A stretch of 64,000 bases of DNA, taken from Mycobacteriaceae bacterium (GTDB taxonomy: Bacteria > Pseudomonadota > Gammaproteobacteria > Burkholderiales > Burkholderiaceae_D). How positions within the stretch are numbered: the first letter of the stretch is position 1; the number at the start of each line of letters is the position of its first letter. Below the pieces are notes generated by a model, which searched no databases, was not told the origin of the DNA, and saw only the letters and a list, made by a program, of their open reading frames with translations. The DNA lies in contig CAJCHO010000131.1 of NCBI GenBank assembly GCA_903970145.1, forward strand, positions 1-64,000. The letters are read 5' to 3'. A program made the position numbers and the translations under genes. Shown here piece by piece: positions 51,008 through 61,239 of the stretch.

Positions 51008-51204
51008 TGGCCCTCGACCGGGTGGCGCGACGCCCCCCGTCGGATCGGGAAACATGCGCGGATGTACTCGCAAGTCGTTGGAGTCGCGCCCCGAATTGCC
51101 AGTTAGACTGGTAGTTGCCGCATCGTGGACTGCCCCGACAGGCGGGGTGCGCAAACGGAACTGCCGTGGCCAATCAATCAGGTATCTGGAATCTGGGCAG
51201 GGGC

Positions 51205-54111
51205 ATGCGCGCAGCTTGGGTGCGCAATGGCAGTGCCTTGTTCGCCATTTTGCTGGTGCTCGTGGCCTGGCCGCTGCTCTCGCATGTCACCAATACTTCG
51301 CTCGCCGGCAAGGGGATGCTCGATCTCGGTCCGCGTACCCAGTGGATCGCTGATCCGGGCGCGAGCCTGTCGATTGCCGAAGTGCGCCAGCGGCCGGCCG
51401 GCGAGTGGCAGGGGCCGGATAGCCACTACCCGGCGCTCGGATTTCAGGACGAACCGGTGTGGTTTCGCGCGCCACTAGCTGCCCAGGACCTGCCGCGCGG
51501 GCCGCTGTGGCTCGAATTTGGCTTTCCGGTACTCACCCGGGTCGATGCCTTCCTGCTCGATGCGCGCGGCAACCTTGTCGCCCAGTGGACGACGGGCACC
51601 GGAATCCCGGTCACCGCCCGTCCCATTTCTGGGACCGCGCTGGTGGTCCCGCTGGAACCGCGTCCACGCGAGGGCGACCAGTTCCTGGTTCGCGTTCACA
51701 CGGTCTCGGCAATGCGGGTGCCTTTGCACGTCTGGAACGCCGAGACCTTCCTGCGCGAACAAAACGCCTGGCACCTGGGCAGCGGGGTGGAGTTTGGTCT
51801 CCTGGTCGGCTTTCTGGTGATGGCGCTGTTCTTTGGCCGAGCGCTGCACGAACGCTACTTCAGCTGGCTCGCAGCCATGATCGGCTCCATGCTTGTCATT
51901 GCTCTCTATCGTACCGGCACGCTGGCCGCCTATCTGTTGCCGGGTGCCCCGGTGGCGCATCGCACGGTCTACTTTGCCGCCCTGGCCAGTCTGACGTGTT
52001 GTGTGGCCTATTCGCAGCGCTCTTCGCTGCGTCTGGCCGCCCATTGGCATGCTGCCGACGTTGTAATGCGGCGCGTGAGCTGGTTGACGCTGTTAGTTGG
52101 CATCACGGGTGTCCTCACACAGAGCGCGACCTATAACGCGGTGCTGCAGGTGCAATTGTGCATCGTCGTCTGCATGGTGCTGGTGCTATCGATTCTGGCG
52201 TGGCGACGCGGTTACCCCGGGGGCCTGCATTTTGCGGTCTTGTGGGTCCTCGTGATCCTGACCGGGGTCGGGCGGCTGGCCGGTGGCCTGTTTGGCCTTG
52301 GCCATCTTCCGGAGTATGTCGATGTGTTGCCCGAGGCGGGGGTGGTTCTGGGCGGGCTAACGATGGGCGATGCCCTTTCGATGCGCGTCCTGCGTGCCGA
52401 ACGCGAGCGCGAACGCGCCCGTCGCAGTGCCGGAGAGTCGCTGCGGCGCTTTGAGCGCGTTTTCGATAATGCGCTCGAGGGGCTGTTCGTGTGGATCCCC
52501 GATTCGAGCTACCTGATCTGCAATCAGGCACTGGCGCGCTTTCTTGGCTATGAATCGCCCGAGGCCTTCGATCGCGCCGTCGCAGAGCCTGCCAATATGC
52601 TCTACGAACCGCAACGCTTTGCCGACATCGAGAGACGCCTGCGCAGTGATCGGGCGGTTCGCGAAGAAACGATTGCCCTGCGTCGCGCCGACGGCTCGCG
52701 CATGTGGGCGATCCTATCGATGCGGCGCGCCGGCTTCGAGGGAGGGCAAAGCGGCTTCGAGGGAGCGGTCGTGGATGTCACGGCCTTGAAGGACTCCCAG
52801 GAGCGCCTGCTGTCGCTGGCCAACCACGACCCGTTGACGGGGCTCGCCAATCGCCGCGCCTATGCCGATTTCATGGATGAACTCAAGCGCGGCCCGGACA
52901 GCCATGATCAACGCCACGTGCTGTTTTATATCGACTTGTCGCGCTTTAAGCTCGTCAACGATACGCTTGGCCATGAAGCCGGAGACCGGCTGCTCGCGCA
53001 GGCCGCCAAGCTGATTCAGTCACAGATCGGTGCCGGGGATCTCGCCGCGCGCCTCGGTGGTGATGAGTTTGGCGTGGTCCTGGTTGACGAGGACGATGCG
53101 GCGGCCGAGCAGGTTGGCATGCGCATCATCGAGCTTATCAGCGGTCTGCGTTTTGCCTGGGAGGGCAAGAGCTTTAGCATTGGCGCGGCAATTGGCGCGA
53201 TCAGTTTTCGGGCGGGCGAGATGCCTACCGAGCGCTTGACCAGCATGGCCGATACGGCGTGCTATCTGGCCAAGGAGCAGGGTTCGGCCCGTCTGCACTG
53301 GTTCCACGAGGCGGCCGAGCAGGCCAGTCAGTACCAGCGGGAGTCAGGCTGGATCCCGCGCATCCAGCATGCGCTCGTCCACGGTGGCTTCGTGCTCTTC
53401 GGTCAGGAGATCCAGCCGATAGCGGCACCCGCCGGCAGACCCAAGTTCGAACTCTTGATCCGTTATCGCGCCGAAGACGGCACGATAACCCAACCGGCCA
53501 CCTTCCTGCGTGCCGCAGAGCGCTACGGCTTGTCGACCACCATCGACGAGTGGGCCGTCCAGACTGCCATGACCTATCTGCGCAATCTCGCCGGCCGCGC
53601 GCAGCGGCCGCCGGTGTTGTCGATCAATCTCAGTGCGGCGGCCTTCTCCGACGACGATTTCCGCGAGAACCTCTTGTCGATGCTCGACACCAATTCAGAT
53701 CTGTGCGACTGCCTGTCGTTCGAGCTGACCGAGACGATGGCCTTGCGCGACATGGTCAAGACCGTCAGCTTCGTCAATGCGGTGCGCGCGCGCGGCTGCA
53801 CCGTTGCGCTCGATGATTTTGGCAGCGGATTTGCATCCTATGCCTCGCTGATCTCGATCCCCCTCGACTATCTCAAGATTGACGGATCTTTCATCCGCGG
53901 AATGGTCGACGATCCGGTCAAGGAGGCGCTGGTGCGCTCGTTCGTTGACATCGGTCGCAGCCTGAATGTGCGCACGATCGCCGAGTTCGTGGAGAGTAGT
54001 GCCACTCATGAAAGGCTGGCGCGCCTCGGGGTAGACTACGGGCAGGGATTCTATTATCACGCTCCCCAGCTGATGGTGGATTCGGTGTTCACCATCGCCG
54101 CGCAGGCTTAG
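51205..54111 (+). CDS. Membrane 7TMR-PAS-GGDEF-EAL cyclic-di-GMP protein
   Basis: Protein of 968 aa. After an N-terminal helix comes a periplasmic 7TMR-DISMED2 sensing domain (about 40-190), seven helices (about 195-385), a PAS domain (about 415-530), GGDEF (about 540-700) and EAL (about 715-960). The cyclase active site is AARLGGDEFGVVLVD; no RxxD inhibitory site precedes it (GAGD instead). The EAL motif reads ELL in FELLIRYRAEDG, while NLSA, ELTE, DDFGSG and LKID are kept, so phosphodiesterase activity is plausible. The ATG at 51205 was chosen in front of the helix; a GTG at 51166 is possible. Confidence 0.92.
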   Translation: MRAAWVRNGSALFAILLVLVAWPLLSHVTNTSLAGKGMLDLGPRTQWIADPGASLSIAEVRQRPAGEWQGPDSHYPALGFQDEPVWFRAPLAAQDLPRGPLWLEFGFPVLTRVDAFLLDARGNLVAQWTTGTGIPVTARPISGTALVVPLEPRPREGDQFLVRVHTVSAMRVPLHVWNAETFLREQNAWHLGSGVEFGLLVGFLVMALFFGRALHERYFSWLAAMIGSMLVIALYRTGTLAAYLLPGAPVAHRTVYFAALASLTCCVAYSQRSSLRLAAHWHAADVVMRRVSWLTLLVGITGVLTQSATYNAVLQVQLCIVVCMVLVLSILAWRRGYPGGLHFAVLWVLVILTGVGRLAGGLFGLGHLPEYVDVLPEAGVVLGGLTMGDALSMRVLRAERERERARRSAGESLRRFERVFDNALEGLFVWIPDSSYLICNQALARFLGYESPEAFDRAVAEPANMLYEPQRFADIERRLRSDRAVREETIALRRADGSRMWAILSMRRAGFEGGQSGFEGAVVDVTALKDSQERLLSLANHDPLTGLANRRAYADFMDELKRGPDSHDQRHVLFYIDLSRFKLVNDTLGHEAGDRLLAQAAKLIQSQIGAGDLAARLGGDEFGVVLVDEDDAAAEQVGMRIIELISGLRFAWEGKSFSIGAAIGAISFRAGEMPTERLTSMADTACYLAKEQGSARLHWFHEAAEQASQYQRESGWIPRIQHALVHGGFVLFGQEIQPIAAPAGRPKFELLIRYRAEDGTITQPATFLRAAERYGLSTTIDEWAVQTAMTYLRNLAGRAQRPPVLSINLSAAAFSDDDFRENLLSMLDTNSDLCDCLSFELTETMALRDMVKTVSFVNAVRARGCTVALDDFGSGFASYASLISIPLDYLKIDGSFIRGMVDDPVKEALVRSFVDIGRSLNVRTIAEFVESSATHERLARLGVDYGQGFYYHAPQLMVDSVFTIAAQA

Positions 54112-54171
54112 CGCTGCTGGCCCGAGCCCTACCCCATTTCCCCGGACTCCTCGAAGCGGCACGGCGCCCCG

Positions 54172-55392
54172 ATGCAAAAGAAGATTTCTCCCGCGCAGCT
54201 GCGTGTGGGCATGTATCTCGACAAACTTGGCGCGAGCTGGTTGGACCACCCCTTTTGGCGGCGCTCCTTCCTGATCGAAGATCCGGCCAGCATCGCGCAG
54301 ATCGTCGAGCTTGGCATCACCGAGATATGGATCGATACTGGCCGCGGCCTTGACGTCGAAGTCAAGGCGCCGGCCGCAAGCCTGCCGGCCGCAAACTCGC
54401 CGGTGGATCCGGCAACGAGGGTGTTGGCCAATAAACCCGCGCGGGTCGTCGAGGAGGACCTTGTCTCGGCGATGGCGCGCGCGCAGCGCCTGTGCGAATC
54501 GGCACGCGGCGAAGTCGCCTCGATGTTTGGTGACGTGCGTATGGGTCGCGCGATCAATGTCGAATCGGTCGGTCCCCTGGTCGAGGAGATCGCGTCATCG
54601 GTTCGCGAGAACGCGGCGGCGCTGATTTCGGTAGCCCGCTTAAAGACCCATGATGATTACACCTACCTGCATTCGGTCGCGGTGTGCGCACTCATGGTCG
54701 CGCTGGCGCGCGAATTGGGACTTGACGAAGCCGAGGTCCGCAGGGCCGGCGTCGGCGGCCTGATGCATGATCTGGGCAAGGCCTTGATGCCGATCAACAT
54801 CTTGAACAAGCCCGGCAAGCTGACCGACGAGGAATACGCTGTCATGAAGCTGCACCCGGCGGTTGGACATCGGCTGCTCGCCGAGGGTGGTGGCGCCGAC
54901 GAAGCGACGCTCGAGATCGCGCTCCATCATCACGAAAAGATGGACGGCTCGGGATACCCAGGTGCGCAGGCCGGCGAGGGCATTACCCACTGGTCGCGCA
55001 TGGGGGCCGTGTGCGACGTGTACGACGCCATCACCTCGAATCGCCCGTACAAGTCGGGCTGGGATCCGGCGCAGGCAATCCGCCGCATGAACTCATGGAA
55101 GGGGCACTTCGACGAGCGCATCCTGCGCGCTTTCGTCAAGAGTGTCGGCATCTATCCGGTTGGCGCCCTGGTGCGACTGCGCTCGGACCGCCTCGGAGTC
55201 GTCGTCGAGCCCGGCCGCTCATCGCTGATCAAGCCCAAGGTGAAGGTTTTTTTCTCGGCGCGGTCCCGGGAGCCGATCACCACCGAGATCGTAGATCTTG
55301 AGGCGGCACGCAGCCCGGACGCGATCGCCGGACCGGAAGATCCGGCGACCTGGGGCTTTACCCATCTCGTGCAGTTGTGGACACCCCAGTAG
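54172..55392 (+). CDS. HD-GYP phosphodiesterase with N-terminal DUF3391
   Basis: Protein of 406 aa that probably hydrolyses cyclic-di-GMP. The N-terminal DUF3391 domain starts KKISPAQLRVGMYLDKLGAS, and the HD-GYP domain spans about 155-320. The HD pair is in GLMHDLGKALMPINILNKPG and the GYP motif in HHHEKMDGSGYPGAQAGEG. Other metal ligands are in YLHSVAVCALM. It follows the GGDEF-EAL gene on the same strand after 60 bp, giving a synthesis/degradation pair. Confidence 0.94.
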   Translation: MQKKISPAQLRVGMYLDKLGASWLDHPFWRRSFLIEDPASIAQIVELGITEIWIDTGRGLDVEVKAPAASLPAANSPVDPATRVLANKPARVVEEDLVSAMARAQRLCESARGEVASMFGDVRMGRAINVESVGPLVEEIASSVRENAAALISVARLKTHDDYTYLHSVAVCALMVALARELGLDEAEVRRAGVGGLMHDLGKALMPINILNKPGKLTDEEYAVMKLHPAVGHRLLAEGGGADEATLEIALHHHEKMDGSGYPGAQAGEGITHWSRMGAVCDVYDAITSNRPYKSGWDPAQAIRRMNSWKGHFDERILRAFVKSVGIYPVGALVRLRSDRLGVVVEPGRSSLIKPKVKVFFSARSREPITTEIVDLEAARSPDAIAGPEDPATWGFTHLVQLWTPQ

Positions 55393-55441: not shown

Positions 55442-57751
55442 TCAGTAGGCGCCCGCCGTCCAGGTACTGCCGCGCGCGGTGCCAGCGAAGTTGGTGCTGT
55501 AGCTCGTCGAGAGCGACGTGCCGAGCGCTGCCGCTGGCGAACCTGAACCGAGGGCCGCTTCTGTCGGACTGTAGGGTGTCGGTGATGCACCGAAGAACTG
55601 GTTGCTGCTCGAGGACACTCCGATGAGCAGGGGATTGGCGAACACGCTCTTGGTATCGGCTCCCGCGAACACGCTCTGCCAGGTCGCAAGGGCCACCGAA
55701 TACACCGTGTCGTAGCCGTAGCTGAACATGGTCGTCGTCGGGCCGAAGTAAGCGTTGTGGTTCAAGGTGATTCCGGTCAGCGGCCCGCTCTGCTGGGCCG
55801 ACCAGATCACCGGCGTATCGCTCATGAAGCCATAGACGACATTATTCTCGATCAGCGAGTTGCTATTGTTGCTGCCGTTGTTCTGCAGATAGATACCGGT
55901 GACGTAACTGTTGGCAACATCACCCTGGTACATCACGATGGTGTTGTTGGTGATCAGGGTGTTCTTCAAACCGTGATTGGCGATCGCGGTGCTGCCTTCG
56001 GCATAGTCGCGAATCCCGATGCGACAGTTGGCGAAGATATTGTTGTAGACCTGGGTGTTGGCGAGGTTGGCGTAGCCATTGCCGCCGTTGCTCGAACCCT
56101 GCTCGTCGGCCAGCATCGCGCACACGCTGTACTTGGCAAGCGTGTTCCAGGGCGATTCGCTGGCGTTGTAGTAGAGGAAATTGGCCGTGTTGGTCGGATG
56201 GTTGTAGAGGAAATTCTGGCGCGCGACATCGTTGGGCTGATTGTCGAAGTACAGGTTCACGCTCCAGTTATCAAACGCCACGTTCTGTTCGAAGACGGTG
56301 CTGCCACTTTGGACCCCTGAGAGGCTGCCGTACGAGAGAATGCCTTCGCCGCCGTTGTCGTGCACGATATTGCCGCGCGCCAAGCCGTTGTAGTTGTATG
56401 ACCAGACCAGATTTCCGGCCCAGCCGCCGCCGTTCTCGGCAAAGCCATTATTGCCGCGCGGCCAGTTCAATAGCACGTTCTGGTAGGCGTGGGTGGTGAT
56501 GACCGAATTGTTGTAGTTGTAGCCCGCGTTGTACTGGAAACTGACGGCCGCCTTGGCGTTGAATTTGATGTTGCAGTTGATCACGGTGATGTCGTGGCCA
56601 TAACCCCAGATGCCGTTGGAGCCCGAGCCGCGCACTGTCAAGCCGTTAAAAACCAGAAACGAGCTGTTCCAGAAATAGACGTGATACTGGCCTCCGTCGC
56701 TGTTGGGTACCACGACATCAGCAGTTGCCGGGGCCACGCTGCCAAAGTCGGCGTAGATCTGGTTGGTACTGGAATTCCAGCCCCACATGCCGGAGCCGGA
56801 AGTCACGCCGGCGATTCCCACCTGAGGCGCGCTGGAGCCGCGCTGGCCCTGGGTCACCTGCTTGAGCGGGACGTCGTTGATGACGACACCCACGGGTGCA
56901 CCGGCCGTACCGTCGGTGGAGGCGGCGTTCGGGTTATAGCTCGCTTTGTAGACGCTACCGGAGACCTGTGTCCAGCCCGTAACGGCCTGGCTGATGTCGA
57001 GAATCACTTCTCCATTTCCGTAGGCGCCAAAGGTGGTCAGTTTCGTCGCCGAGCCGTTGATGCCGTCATGCAGATTGATGCCCTCGCGGTACAGGCCGCC
57101 CTTGATAAGGACAGTGTCGCCGCCCGACTGGGAGACCACGCTGACCGACTTTGCGATCGTCTTGAATGCTGTCGCCACCGTCGTGCCGGCGTTCGAGTCC
57201 GAGCCGTTGGTACCGTCTACATAGTAGGTCTTGCCGCTCGTCGAGGGTGCCACGGTCGGCACGCTCTTGGTCCAGGTTGGCCAGGGATAGGGTCCGCCCA
57301 CATCGGTCATACCGCCTACCACGGGACCGGAGGTCGTGGTCGTGGATTCGGTGAAGTAGACCTGGGTGAGTTCCGGCCACTGCATGCCGACCGTGCAGAT
57401 CGGGTTCTTGCCGGTGCAATTTCCGGTCCAACTGGAGAAGGTCGAACCACTTGCGGCAGTGGCCGTGATCGTGACTGTGGAGTCGACGGCGAAATATCGG
57501 GTACAGACCCCCGGGCCTTGGCAAGCTGTCCGCGAGGGACTGAAGGTCAGGGTGCCGTTGCCCACGATCGTGGCCTGAAAGACATTGTTTACCTGAGCGG
57601 TCGCGGTCAGCTCCGCATGGTCTGCGCCCGACTGACTGTCGCCTGTGCCGCCGCCGCCGCAGGCGGCCAAGAGAGACACGCAGGAGACGGCGGCTATGCT
57701 CAGACGCAGGCGCCGCAGATTCGACAACAAGGCAGAAGTAATCATGGTCAT
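55442..57751 (-). CDS. Right-handed beta-helix lipoprotein
   Basis: Protein of 769 aa. The lipoprotein signal ends in VSCVSLLAACGGGGTGD. An N-terminal beta-rich domain (about 40-130, ATIVGNGTLTFSPSRTACQG ... SGSTFSSWTGNC) resembles InlB B-type repeats. Residues about 170-740 form a beta-helix rich in Asn, Gly and Thr with repeated strands such as NNSVITTHAYQNVLLNW and NNVVYGFMSDTPVIWS. The DUF1565-like motif TYYVDGTNGSDSNAGTTVAT is at the start of the helix. It may be a surface polysaccharide-binding protein or lyase; no catalytic site is recognisable. The start is at 57751 or the Met two codons later. Confidence 0.8.
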   Translation of the reverse strand: MTMITSALLSNLRRLRLSIAAVSCVSLLAACGGGGTGDSQSGADHAELTATAQVNNVFQATIVGNGTLTFSPSRTACQGPGVCTRYFAVDSTVTITATAASGSTFSSWTGNCTGKNPICTVGMQWPELTQVYFTESTTTTSGPVVGGMTDVGGPYPWPTWTKSVPTVAPSTSGKTYYVDGTNGSDSNAGTTVATAFKTIAKSVSVVSQSGGDTVLIKGGLYREGINLHDGINGSATKLTTFGAYGNGEVILDISQAVTGWTQVSGSVYKASYNPNAASTDGTAGAPVGVVINDVPLKQVTQGQRGSSAPQVGIAGVTSGSGMWGWNSSTNQIYADFGSVAPATADVVVPNSDGGQYHVYFWNSSFLVFNGLTVRGSGSNGIWGYGHDITVINCNIKFNAKAAVSFQYNAGYNYNNSVITTHAYQNVLLNWPRGNNGFAENGGGWAGNLVWSYNYNGLARGNIVHDNGGEGILSYGSLSGVQSGSTVFEQNVAFDNWSVNLYFDNQPNDVARQNFLYNHPTNTANFLYYNASESPWNTLAKYSVCAMLADEQGSSNGGNGYANLANTQVYNNIFANCRIGIRDYAEGSTAIANHGLKNTLITNNTIVMYQGDVANSYVTGIYLQNNGSNNSNSLIENNVVYGFMSDTPVIWSAQQSGPLTGITLNHNAYFGPTTTMFSYGYDTVYSVALATWQSVFAGADTKSVFANPLLIGVSSSSNQFFGASPTPYSPTEAALGSGSPAAALGTSLSTSYSTNFAGTARGSTWTAGAY

Positions 57752-58564
57752 CCAGGTAAAAGCGGGATGGCTTGATCGGTCGGCTCTGGCAAGCCGCCGG
57801 GCAAAAGCGATCCCTGCCGGTGCGCAAAAGCGCATCGACGACAAGCGGTCGGATACTGCTGATGCCGGCTGGATAGGAGCCAGCCGGCGGCGCGTGCGTG
57901 AACGAACTCGATCGATCGGTGCAGCTAGACGCCGTTCGGCCGGGCGGGCCCGAATTGCGCTTTGTTGCCAATCATCCGAGGTGACGGTCGGGCCGATCTG
58001 TCGGCGGCGTCCTCGCTAGGATGGGATTCACGCTGCCTGATCCGCTGTCTCGTGGCACCTGGGCTTTCAACTGTGAAAGTACCGTGCCTTCATCACAACA
58101 CGTTGACAGTTTCGGTTGCGTGGCGTTCCGATGTAATCGGCGATCAACCGAAAATCGACTAGGTGAACATACGATTCTGCCTGTAGGACTACGCAAGGAT
58201 TGCGCTAGGTGCTTAGTTTGGGTGTCGGCAGGCAGAGGACTCGATTGTCCGGGAGTTGCGTCCTCGTTTGTGCACGAATTTGGTGCGCGCGCGAGGCGCC
58301 CTTAACCAAGCCGATTCTTGCCCATTGCCGGCGCTGGGTTTGTCACGCCCGCAGATCAGGAGGGCCCCAAAGGTCGCAAAAGGCCGCAAAAGGCTGACGG
58401 CACGGGGCATCCGGCGCGTCTGCCGGGTGCTGATGCCAAATGTGAATTTTTCACAGTTGCTTGCGGGAATTCTTACTAATAATGGCGCCGCGTCGAGCCT
58501 ACAGTGAAGCCATGGGATCGAGATGCACAGAGGACAGGGATCCCGCCACAACGAGGAGAGCGCC
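57752..58564. other. Long intergenic stretch
   Basis: About 800 bp with no supported gene. An open frame at 58021-58305 on the plus strand has no ribosome site or recognisable motif. The left part should hold the beta-helix promoter. The right part has direct repeats of GCAAAAGGC near 58377 and the TGTGA-type palindrome at 58441, and leads into the first miniprotein gene. Confidence 0.5.
58441..58455. promoter_or_regulatory. CRP-like palindrome TGTGA-N5-TCACA
   Basis: TGTGAATTTTTCACA is a perfect 15-bp palindrome, 110 bp above the first miniprotein ATG. CRP sites have TGTGA-N6-TCACA; here the spacer is five. The regulator at 59021-59668 retains the Arg-Glu of the CRP recognition helix, so it is a natural candidate binder. 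Confidence 0.55.
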
Positions 58565-58750
58565 ATGAACGACAAGCCTTCGAAATCCGAAACGGTCCTT
58601 GAATCCATCTTGCGCGGTCTGGTGGTCGCGATGGCAATTGGTCTGGTCGCCTGGGTTGGTTTGGCGGCTCGCGAGCTTGCGGCCCCGGCCAAGTCGAGCG
58701 TTGTCGCTTCGATCAGCCAACTCGCGGCAAGCGCATCTGCGGCGACCTGA
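58565..58750 (+). CDS. Single-helix membrane miniprotein A
   Basis: A 61-residue protein: a charged N-terminus (MNDKPSKSETVLES), one hydrophobic helix (ILRGLVVAMAIGLVAWVGLA) and an Ala/Ser-rich tail. GAGGAGAGC precedes the ATG. It shares the core S-x-L-x-G-L-V-V-A-x-x-I-G-x-x-x-W-x-x-L-A with the next gene. No family is known to me. Confidence 0.75.
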   Translation: MNDKPSKSETVLESILRGLVVAMAIGLVAWVGLAARELAAPAKSSVVASISQLAASASAAT

Positions 58751-58817
58751 AACCCACCCCGAACGCAGCACCTGCGTAACACGGCAACTTGGTTCGACCA
58801 CTCACAGGGAGAGCACC

Positions 58818-58961
58818 ATGGACACGCAACATACCGAAGACGAGCTTGAAATGGACAGCATGCTTCACGGCCTGGTAGTCGCAACCATGATTGGTTGCAC
58901 CTTGTGGCAGGCGCTGGCGCCCCAGGTGATCCCGATGCTCACCGCACTGACGGTCTCCTGA
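58818..58961 (+). CDS. Single-helix membrane miniprotein B
   Basis: A 47-residue protein with an acidic N-terminus (MDTQHTEDELEMDS) and one hydrophobic helix (MLHGLVVATMIGCTLWQALA). GGGAGAGC precedes the ATG. It is a diverged copy of miniprotein A, 67 bp downstream on the same strand, so the pair probably arose by duplication. Function unknown. Confidence 0.75.
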   Translation: MDTQHTEDELEMDSMLHGLVVATMIGCTLWQALAPQVIPMLTALTVS

Positions 58962-59020: not shown

Positions 59021-59668
59021 CTACCAGGCCTCCGGTAGCTTGCGCTGGATCACGATACGCTTGGCGTCGACACAGATATAGCCGCCGCGCGCGAGATCCT
59101 TGAGTATTTTGCTGACCATCTCGCGCGATGAACCGACGCGGTCGGCGATATCCTGGTGCGTGTAGCGCTCACGCATCTTGCGGACCCCGCCTTCGATGTC
59201 CGACTCGGTGGTCAAGAGCTCAGCGATGCGGCCGTAAACGTCCATTAAAGCCAGGCTCTTGATCCGGATGGTAGAGCGACGGATCAGGCGGATCAGCTTG
59301 ATCACCAGGTGCGAGGCGAACTCCGGATAGTCACGCATGAATTCGCGCAGGTCTTCTGCGTAGACGACCGAACAGGAAGTCGGCTCGACGGTCATCACGG
59401 ATGCGGCGCGTGTGCCGCCGTCCAGTGACAGCTCCCCGAGATATTCGCCCGGACCGAGAATACTGTAGACCACCTCCCGACCGGCCTGGCTGATCGAATA
59501 GACCTTCACGCGGCCCGCCAGGATGATGAAGATCGAGTCGCCCGGTTCGCCCTCGTTGATGATGACACTGCCAGGGGGATAGCGCCGGACCTGACCTGCC
59601 TCGGCAATGCGCAGCAGCACGTCATCGTCGATGGCGTCAACCGATGCCAAGCCTTTGGTTTTCTCCAT
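59021..59668 (-). CDS. Crp/Fnr-family transcriptional regulator
   Basis: Protein of 215 aa. A cyclic-nucleotide-binding beta-roll spans about 20-115 (YPPGSVIINEGEPGDSIFII ... LGELSLDGGTRAASVMTV), followed by a dimer helix and a winged HTH. The recognition helix SSREMVSKILKDL keeps the Arg-Glu of CRP, which contact the TGTGA half-site. There is no N-terminal cysteine cluster, so it is not an oxygen-sensing FNR. The effector could be cAMP or another nucleotide. It converges on miniprotein B and is divergent from the MarR gene. Confidence 0.92.
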   Translation of the reverse strand: MEKTKGLASVDAIDDDVLLRIAEAGQVRRYPPGSVIINEGEPGDSIFIILAGRVKVYSISQAGREVVYSILGPGEYLGELSLDGGTRAASVMTVEPTSCSVVYAEDLREFMRDYPEFASHLVIKLIRLIRRSTIRIKSLALMDVYGRIAELLTTESDIEGGVRKMRERYTHQDIADRVGSSREMVSKILKDLARGGYICVDAKRIVIQRKLPEAW

Positions 59669-59845: not shown

Positions 59846-60325
59846 ATGGGAAGACAGACCAAGCAGGACTTGCCCCTCCAGGTATTGAAGAAATTCCGGG
59901 TGATTTATGGTTCGGTGCGGCAGCATTTTCGCGACGTGGAAGCGTCCTGTGGCCTGTCGGGCTCCCAGCTTTGGATTCTGCGAGAGATCGATCGCACTCC
60001 CGGTGTCGGCGTTTCCGAACTCGCCACACGTTTGTCGGTACACCAGTCGACTTCGAGCCAGCTCGTCGAGAAGCTGGTGCTGCGCGGCCTGGTCTCCAAG
60101 CAGCGGTCCCGGGAAGATCAGCGCCGCGTGGGCTTGCTTGTTTCGCGCGAAGCACGCGAGCTGATCGCCCGGGCGCCTGGTCCGGCCAAGGGCATCCTGC
60201 CCGAGGCGCTCATGGCAATGTCCGCGAGCGCTTTGGTGGCGCTTGATGGGGGACTGGAGAAAGTGATCGAACAATTGGAAGTTCGAGATGAGAGATACGC
60301 CGACCGACATCTATCCGAGCTCTGA
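59846..60325 (+). CDS. MarR-family transcriptional regulator
   Basis: Protein of 159 aa. The winged HTH runs from about residue 45 to 115: VGVSELATRLSVHQSTSSQL then VEKLVLRGLVSKQRSREDQR, with the wing arginine. Length is normal. The inverted repeat around its promoter suggests autorepression. It overlaps the next frame by 38 bp, so the downstream membrane gene may be its target; the ligand is unknown. Confidence 0.9.
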   Translation: MGRQTKQDLPLQVLKKFRVIYGSVRQHFRDVEASCGLSGSQLWILREIDRTPGVGVSELATRLSVHQSTSSQLVEKLVLRGLVSKQRSREDQRRVGLLVSREARELIARAPGPAKGILPEALMAMSASALVALDGGLEKVIEQLEVRDERYADRHLSEL

Positions 60326-61239
60326 GAGACCGATCAACGTCGGACCCACAGCGTCCTCGCCTACGCTTGCCACCGGGCAGCCAGCGATCCCTATGGTTCC
60401 TTTGGCGAGCTCACACCGCACCGTGGTCTTGAGGCTCGCCCTCATGCTCGTGATCGGCGCTGCCATGCTGCTGGCAGCCAGTACCTGGCGCGTCTATGGA
60501 CACACCTGGGACGAGCCGGAACATCTGGCGGCCGGTATGGAGTTGCTCGATCGCGGCAAGTATGAATATGACATCCAGCATCCGCCGCTCGCTCGCGTTC
60601 TGATTGCATTGGGCCCCTATCTTGCGGGGGCGCGTTCGCTCGGCAAGCCGCCCCCCGATGGAACACCGGAGGGAGTCGCGATCCTCTACGGGGGTGGTCA
60701 CTATGATGAGTATCTGACGCTCGCCAGGCTCGGGGTGCTGCCGTTTCTGGGGCTGCTGTTGTTCGCGACCTGGCTATGGGCGCGGCGCATCGCGCGTTCC
60801 GATGGCGAAGCGCTGTTGGCCGTTTTGCTGTTCGCTGCCGTCCCGCCCGTGCTTTCTGATTGGCTGGCAGCTCGCCACGCTCGTGACGGCCTACCCGGAC
60901 TACCTTCCCTACTTCAACGAGGCCGTCGCCAAGCCCGAGCGCGTTCTGGTCGATTCGGATCTCGCCTGGGGTCAGGACCTGCGCCGGCTCGAGCAGCGCC
61001 TCGCAGAGCTTAGAGTCGCTCAGTTCAGCTTCGCCTACCTCGGAACCGCCGATCTGAATCGTGAAACCTTTCCGAAGCTCACCCGTCTTGCGCCCGGGCA
61101 GATGGCCACCGGCTGGGTCGCCATCACCGCACTGGCACGCGTGCATGGAGGCGCGGGGTATGCATGGCTCGATGCCTACAGCCCGGTAGAGACAGTCGGC
61201 AAGTCGATCGACCTGTATTTCATTCCGGCGCCGCAATAG
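60288..61239 (+). pseudogene. Glycosyltransferase-39-like membrane protein with internal deletion
   Basis: The N-terminal part (to about 60870) has the first helix (VVLRLALMLVIGAAMLLAAS) and the WDEPEHLAAGMELLDRG and HPPLARVLIALGPYL motifs of PMT/ArnT-like glycosyltransferases. The C-terminal soluble part lies in another frame (from about 60865): YPDYLPYFNEAVAKPERVLV then DSDLAWGQDLRRLEQRL, to a stop at 61239. Full relatives have about 500-600 aa with many helices; some 200-300 central residues are missing and the frame changes at the joint. It is probably dead. A later ATG at 60393 is a likelier original start. Confidence 0.75.

Follow-up and report, generated by a model that had tools for sequence, protein, structure and literature searches.

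The window analysed here, a stretch of 64,000 nucleotides taken from contig CAJCHO010000131.1, carries two short genes on the forward strand, preceded by a palindrome and promoter elements and followed by a convergent gene for a CRP-like regulator (Table 1). The sequence-only reading of this DNA had reported two genes of 61 and 47 codons with ribosome sites, a helix core common to both, and a CRP-like regulator and TGTGA palindrome nearby; all of these were found as described, with coordinates, lengths, sequences and the core motif exact.

Table 1. Features of the miniprotein locus, with positions in the window
Feature	Position	Strand	Basis
Putative operator palindrome TGTGAATTTTTCACA, CRP-like TGTGA half-sites, spacer 5	58441..58455	+	sequence
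Conserved promoter element GGGAATTCTTACT, between operator and -10	58465..58477	+	consensus G.AtT..TtaCT, 13 aligned promoters
-10-like hexamer TACAGT, 44 bp after palindrome	58500..58505	+	invariant 44-45 bp spacing in family promoters
Ribosome-binding site of ORF1, GAGGAGA	58553..58559	+	sequence
ORF1, 61-aa membrane miniprotein, predicted single-helix	58565..58750	+	sequence, HMM, shuffling
Ribosome-binding site of ORF2, AGGGAGAG	58806..58813	+	sequence
ORF2, 47-aa paralogue of ORF1, second gene of the operon	58818..58961	+	sequence, HMM, shuffling
CRP-like regulator, cNMP-binding domain and Crp-type HTH, convergent with the operon; probable activator	59021..59668	-	Pfam, homologues

Two related miniproteins and their neighbourhood

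ORF1 and ORF2 have in common the helix core S-x-L-x-G-L-V-V-A-x-x-I-G-x-x-x-W-x-x-L-A, in which 12 of the 21 residues are identical; over the same core 35 of 63 bases are identical, and six of the 12 identical residues are specified by different codons. The score of this match was reached by none of 20,000 shuffles, either of whole sequences or in a segment-preserving mode with the helix shuffled separately, and each protein is the other's second-best match genome-wide (E 0.012 and 0.008). In addition, an HMM for which solely sequences of another genus were used ranked ORF1 first (E 4.6e-5) and ORF2 second (E 3.3e-4) among the 1359 reading-frame segments of the window, with the third-ranked segment at E 0.63, and its first position coincides with the proposed ATG in both genes. 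A sequence scan found no promoter-like site between them. These comparisons confirm, at the level of sequence, that ORF1 and ORF2 are related proteins of a predicted one-helix membrane type.

Each member of the miniprotein family has a single hydrophobic segment of ~19 residues, which in ORF2 and the 42-aa members described below is followed by no charged residue. The AlphaFold2 model of ORF2 is a single helix over residues 4-46 (mean pLDDT 75) and, being a single helix, adds little. Neither protein came near a curated cut-off with the Pfam, NCBIfam, PHROGs or PADLOC models.

The neighbours of ORF1 and ORF2 in the window include the regulator, a MarR gene, a ClC gene and others. MarR genes lie near three of the miniprotein loci, but they are not closely related, and MarR was rejected as a common partner. 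Downstream, at 60288-61239 (+), a glycosyltransferase-like membrane protein is split over two overlapping frames (241 and 145 aa) as if its middle had been deleted, and appears to be a pseudogene or an assembly fault. The gene at 55442-57844 (-) encodes a beta-helix protein of 800 aa, whose N-terminus is lipoprotein-like and which has a domain resembling an InlB B-repeat (weak Pfam matches).

Tandem arrays and distribution of the family

A protein search of 60 relatives yielded a 57-aa homologue in one genome (G010; E 1.5e-5), a three-sequence profile found two homologues in a second genome of the same genus (G074), and a five-sequence profile revealed tandem arrays in both. On contig C181 of G010 there are three pairs of 42-aa genes within ~2.4 kb, with a third relative after two of the pairs, and on contig C101 of G074 there are two pairs, one with a third gene; more copies are found on contigs C170, C278, C121 and C127 of G074 and C14 and C24 of G010. 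Homologous tandems are thus present in two other genomes; the sequence-only reading had named their absence elsewhere as counting against its proposal, and such an absence was not what was found.

A profile of 22 sequences matched 12 times in G010, 12 times in G074 and twice in the window genome (G000), the homologues in G010 and G074 being mostly of 42 aa and arranged in operons of two or three tandem genes. The remaining 389 genomes in the family sample had no match to this profile, and an order-wide sample of 399 genomes added two matches, both weak and inside large ORFs. The weak matches in other genomes of the family and order (L008-L010, L017-L025, L129 and L130) were taken as chance, as those inspected lie inside large ORFs or are unrelated in sequence, and the scores of the others are no better. 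In a collection of 84,980 species genomes a conserved-core pattern matched only the two array genomes, which the public records list as bog metagenome assemblies, PLEY01 (Burkholderiales bog_994) and CAJCID01 (labelled Rhodospirillales); this pattern was made from a narrower alignment than the 22-row one, which is too diverse for a degenerate-pattern scan, so that divergent relatives in the collection could be missed. All genomes carrying the system are draft MAGs, and on present sequence data the family is known to date from just two Burkholderiales genera, in which it is encoded in tandem operons. An origin from phages or plasmids was rejected, since searches of plasmids, phages, IMG/VR and PHROGs gave no match.

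Among pairs of the relatives' copies within the other genus (that is, not the ORF1/ORF2 pair itself), dN/dS was 0.07-0.38 with many synonymous changes, which indicates that the protein is what is kept. The sequence-only reading had proposed selection on the helix, and in part this holds; however, the helix is only a portion of what is conserved, as the hydrophilic entry R-[LI]-D-N-V-L and the terminal P-L-[AT]-A are preserved at least as well in the family-wide alignment. No conserved His was present in the alignment of 22 sequences.

Several further observations were made at these loci. At L080 (G074:C170) and L081 (G010:C24) the miniprotein operon adjoins a ClpP-type protease gene (PF00574, tested in L080), in differing relative orientation. 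A LanC-like gene (PF05147, 9.6e-21; L077, 1627-2874, -) lies beside the G074 array and not beside the G010 array. The Rhodospirillales title of CAJCID01 (G074) looks wrong, as this genome has the genus of a Burkholderiales MAG together with its gene arrays.

A common promoter and a conserved neighbouring regulator

The sequence TGTGAANNNTTCACA occurs once in the window assembly, at the palindrome upstream of ORF1, and the palindrome is found at equal distance before the homologous operons of G010 and G074. One G074 homologue carries the window-type promoter, with TGTGAA-N3-TTCACA and then TACAGTG at exactly equal distance, and nearly every operon of the family starts with TGTGAAT-N3-TCACA, followed after 44-45 bp by TACAGTG. 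Aligned on the palindrome, the promoters read TGTGAATA-x-tTCACA, G-x-AtT-xx-TtaCTcg, TAcAgTG at 44-45 bp and then aGtCaTC-x-gatc; the divergent single-gene homologues L007 and L016 keep this layout with degenerate palindromes. A search for the compound pattern TGTGAANNNNTCACA-N(43-46)-TANANTG gave 13 matches in the three genomes (one in G000, five in G010 and seven in G074) and a single one among the 389 remaining genomes of the family, with ~0.5 expected by chance in the whole scan. That stray match, in G153, is inside an adhesin-like reading frame, an unrelated coding region, and was set aside. These sequence data show that the miniprotein family has a promoter in common.

Taking the hexamer as the -10 would put the centre of the palindrome near -62 to -64 relative to the transcription start so deduced; in E. 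coli CRP this is around the class I position of activation. A sigma-70 scan of the promoter gave no -35/-10 pair, as expected for an activator-dependent promoter, and an Rfam search gave no match to a known RNA element. The first bases after the -10 (GGAGTCATCGGATC, 58500-58525, and the homologous leaders) are conserved even between divergent loci, and may be a signal in the leader RNA or contribute to promoter recognition.

The three genomes also have palindrome sites outside the loci assigned to the family; these precede other small ORFs or lie at a contig end. Two of these ORFs encode single-helix proteins (46 aa each) and two encode related soluble proteins of ~63 aa. The soluble proteins, L086 (G010:C27, site 1501) and L091 (G074:C124, site 1501), with the sequences MSRTKILLRWTRVGKGSGATCQW... 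and [MV]KRAKLEMCWQRVNGKLGVASRW..., are 40% identical over 50 residues (E 0.008) and have a promoter of the miniprotein type; they would be a second small-protein type of the regulon. A relaxed pattern added one site, L147 site 1501 (G010:C186:34605), where a full-consensus promoter lies beside unresolved bases with no clear small ORF.

The product of the convergent gene has the CRP/FNR layout, with PF00027 (7.7e-23) followed by PF13545 (1.1e-10). Among 14 genomes, homologues above 50% identity were present only in G010 and G074 (57 and 56% respectively), the others reaching at most 46%. In all three genomes carrying the system the regulator adjoins a miniprotein-type operon. In G010 and G074 the regulator gene is followed closely, on its own strand, by the palindrome site and a single-helix small-protein gene; the window has a convergent arrangement instead, so the adjacency has survived a change of gene order. 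In addition, GGTGAATAATTCACA precedes the gene of a regulator homologue with 46% identity in another family. On gene neighbourhood and site distribution, the assignment of this protein as the regulator of the miniprotein operons is well supported, and the common operator and conserved CRP-like neighbour lend strong in silico support to the earlier suggestion of a regulated, undescribed system.

When aligned with the E. coli CRP sequence, the regulator keeps, in its recognition helix, R180 and E181 of the residues that read TGTGA, and R185 is Lys in the window and Arg in the orthologues. Of the cAMP pocket (G71 E72 L73, R82), Gly-Glu-Leu and R82 are kept, S83 is Ala in the window and Ser in both orthologues, and the C-helix positions T127/S128 are S/T or T/T, so that all three proteins have hydroxyl residues there. 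The N-terminal cysteine cluster of FNR (4Fe-4S) was sought, and the three orthologues have no N-terminal cysteine. Among solved structures, the nearest relatives are Crp/Fnr-family proteins of the actinobacterial type, which we take to be GlxR and Mycobacterium Crp. Upstream, at 51115-55392 (+), a 7TMR-DISM/PAS/GGDEF/EAL protein and a DUF3391/HD-GYP protein are encoded in tandem, placing c-di-GMP turnover near the CRP-like gene. As the Burkholderia CRP/FNR member Bcam1349 binds c-di-GMP (PMC3584217), this cyclic dinucleotide is a possible ligand.

Proposed role and comparison with known systems

On balance, we think it more likely than not that the locus represents a small, dedicated regulon: a relative of CRP would switch on inner-membrane miniproteins of one helix each, and these would function by attaching to a membrane complex or to one another. 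This proposal builds on what is observed in the sequences, i.e. the genes, the family, its tandem arrays, purifying selection in the relatives, the common promoter and the conserved regulator neighbourhood; from these we infer binding of the regulator to the site, activation rather than repression, a ligand, a membrane orientation, a membrane role for the miniproteins and a protein target. ORF1 and ORF2 would form a two-gene operon giving two paralogous single-pass inner-membrane miniproteins. The neighbouring CRP-like protein would bind the 15-bp palindrome, ~62-64 bp upstream of the presumed transcription start, and activate a promoter with a recognisable -10 and without a good -35, a geometry that would be that of class I CRP activation, probably in answer to a cyclic nucleotide. 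Each miniprotein would then enter the membrane as a single helix, preceded by a hydrophilic segment at the N-terminus (R-[LI]-D-N in most members) and followed by a short tail that is mostly uncharged. The sequence-only reading had likewise suggested helix pairing or attachment to a membrane complex, which is plausible. It counts against the proposal that no partner complex is encoded near ORF1 and ORF2. For action by binding a protein, AzuC and VcdP provide a precedent: both are under CRP control and work by attaching to a larger protein, GlpD and GltA respectively (PMC8672173). More speculatively, a CRP-type regulator that has shifted to a 15-bp operator might control a regulon almost wholly of miniature proteins, most of them one-helix membrane proteins, multiplied and diversified in tandem arrays, which could serve as cyclic-nucleotide-controlled, interchangeable one-helix adaptors for membrane complexes; this wider idea we put forward only tentatively.

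Some findings count against the proposed regulon: the 5-bp spacer of the palindrome, as against the 6 bp of E. coli CRP sites; the C186 promoter of G010 with no clear small ORF, which adjoins an assembly gap; the occurrence of the regulator's wider group (43-46% identity) in genomes without miniproteins among the 14 tested; and the further CRP homologues of the window genome. The spacer and these additional homologues also favour the view that another CRP-family protein of the cell reads the palindrome and that the neighbouring gene is a bystander, but since regulator and operon have stayed together in three genomes despite the altered gene order, and a regulator homologue has the site before its own gene, we consider that view unlikely. 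It is scarcely conceivable that ORF1 and ORF2 are chance reading frames, alike merely as hydrophobic helices are. Short hydrophobic ORFs are indeed common, and weak matches in the genome show the background; however, the segment-preserving shuffles never attained the observed score, and the independent HMM, purifying selection in the relatives (dN/dS) and the compound promoter that the genes have in common contradict such an origin, so chance likeness of hydrophobic stretches was discarded.

Two other roles were weighed against that of membrane adaptors. The miniproteins might be depolarising, multicopy membrane peptides like the type I toxins Ldr, Ibs and TisB, held in check by antisense RNA. 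The ldr genes are multicopy and tandem, and the miniprotein genes resemble those of Ldr and Ibs in this. The products are moreover below 65 aa, hydrophobic and of one helix, general features of type I toxins (PMC8309996), but ORF2 and the 42-aa members are without the cationic C-terminal residues noted for LdrD-like toxins (PMC8309996). No Rfam antitoxin family was matched, no promoter-like site was found on the minus strand over ORF1 and ORF2 (a weak test), and the operons hold two or three distinct paralogues with separate ribosome sites behind a strong activator-type promoter, all of which makes a toxin role improbable. Less likely still are exported or released peptides, whether two-peptide bacteriocins, signals or precursors of modified peptides, as which paired short paralogues with small-residue helix motifs, and one array adjoined by a LanC-like gene, might be understood. 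ORF1 and ORF2 have no double-glycine leader, the window holds no adjacent transporter or immunity gene, and the LanC-like gene is absent beside the other arrays; having been found beside one array only, it was rejected as a peptide-modifying enzyme.

The protein family is undescribed in the sense that the libraries searched (Pfam, NCBIfam, PHROGs and PADLOC) have no entry for it, and among the papers listed in searches of part of the literature there was no description of such a tandem miniprotein/CRP system. CRP is already known to control individual small proteins, but to our knowledge no regulon has been described that serves a family of one-helix membrane proteins multiplied in tandem, accompanied by a conserved regulator gene next door. 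With an operator defined, an activator proposed and some two dozen natural variants of a ~42-aa protein at hand, the function and evolution of tiny membrane proteins become testable. Standard family libraries miss such genes.

CydX, CcoQ and the light-harvesting alpha/beta polypeptides are small single-pass subunits, and the light-harvesting pairs are tandem and multicopy. The miniproteins are also small and, by prediction, single-pass, and are tandem and multicopy as the light-harvesting pairs are; in contrast, they have no conserved His ligand of the light-harvesting kind, and their genes do not adjoin those for the large subunits of any complex. The regulator is like CRP, GlxR and Bcam1349-type proteins in domain layout, TGTGA-reading residues and most of the cAMP pocket, but is 28% identical with E. 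coli CRP, would have a miniprotein regulon, and has a predicted operator, TGTGA-N5-TCACA (15 bp), that falls outside the 16-bp TGTGA-N6-TCACA of CRP sites. The type I toxins Ldr, Ibs, TisB and Fst are, like the miniproteins, short, hydrophobic and of one helix (PMC8309996), and some are multicopy, whereas the miniproteins are polycistronic, distinct paralogues, most of them without a cationic C-terminus, for which an antisense partner was not found. AzuC/AzuCR of E. coli and VcdP of Vibrio cholerae resemble the present system as very small proteins under a CRP-family regulator (PMC8672173). They have no sequence family in common with the miniproteins, and each is encoded by one gene, on a dual-function RNA that the global CRP controls (PMC8672173), whereas the miniproteins are tandem paralogues with a probable dedicated regulator encoded next to them. 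CRP-controlled small membrane proteins are a known kind, to which this miniprotein family is new.
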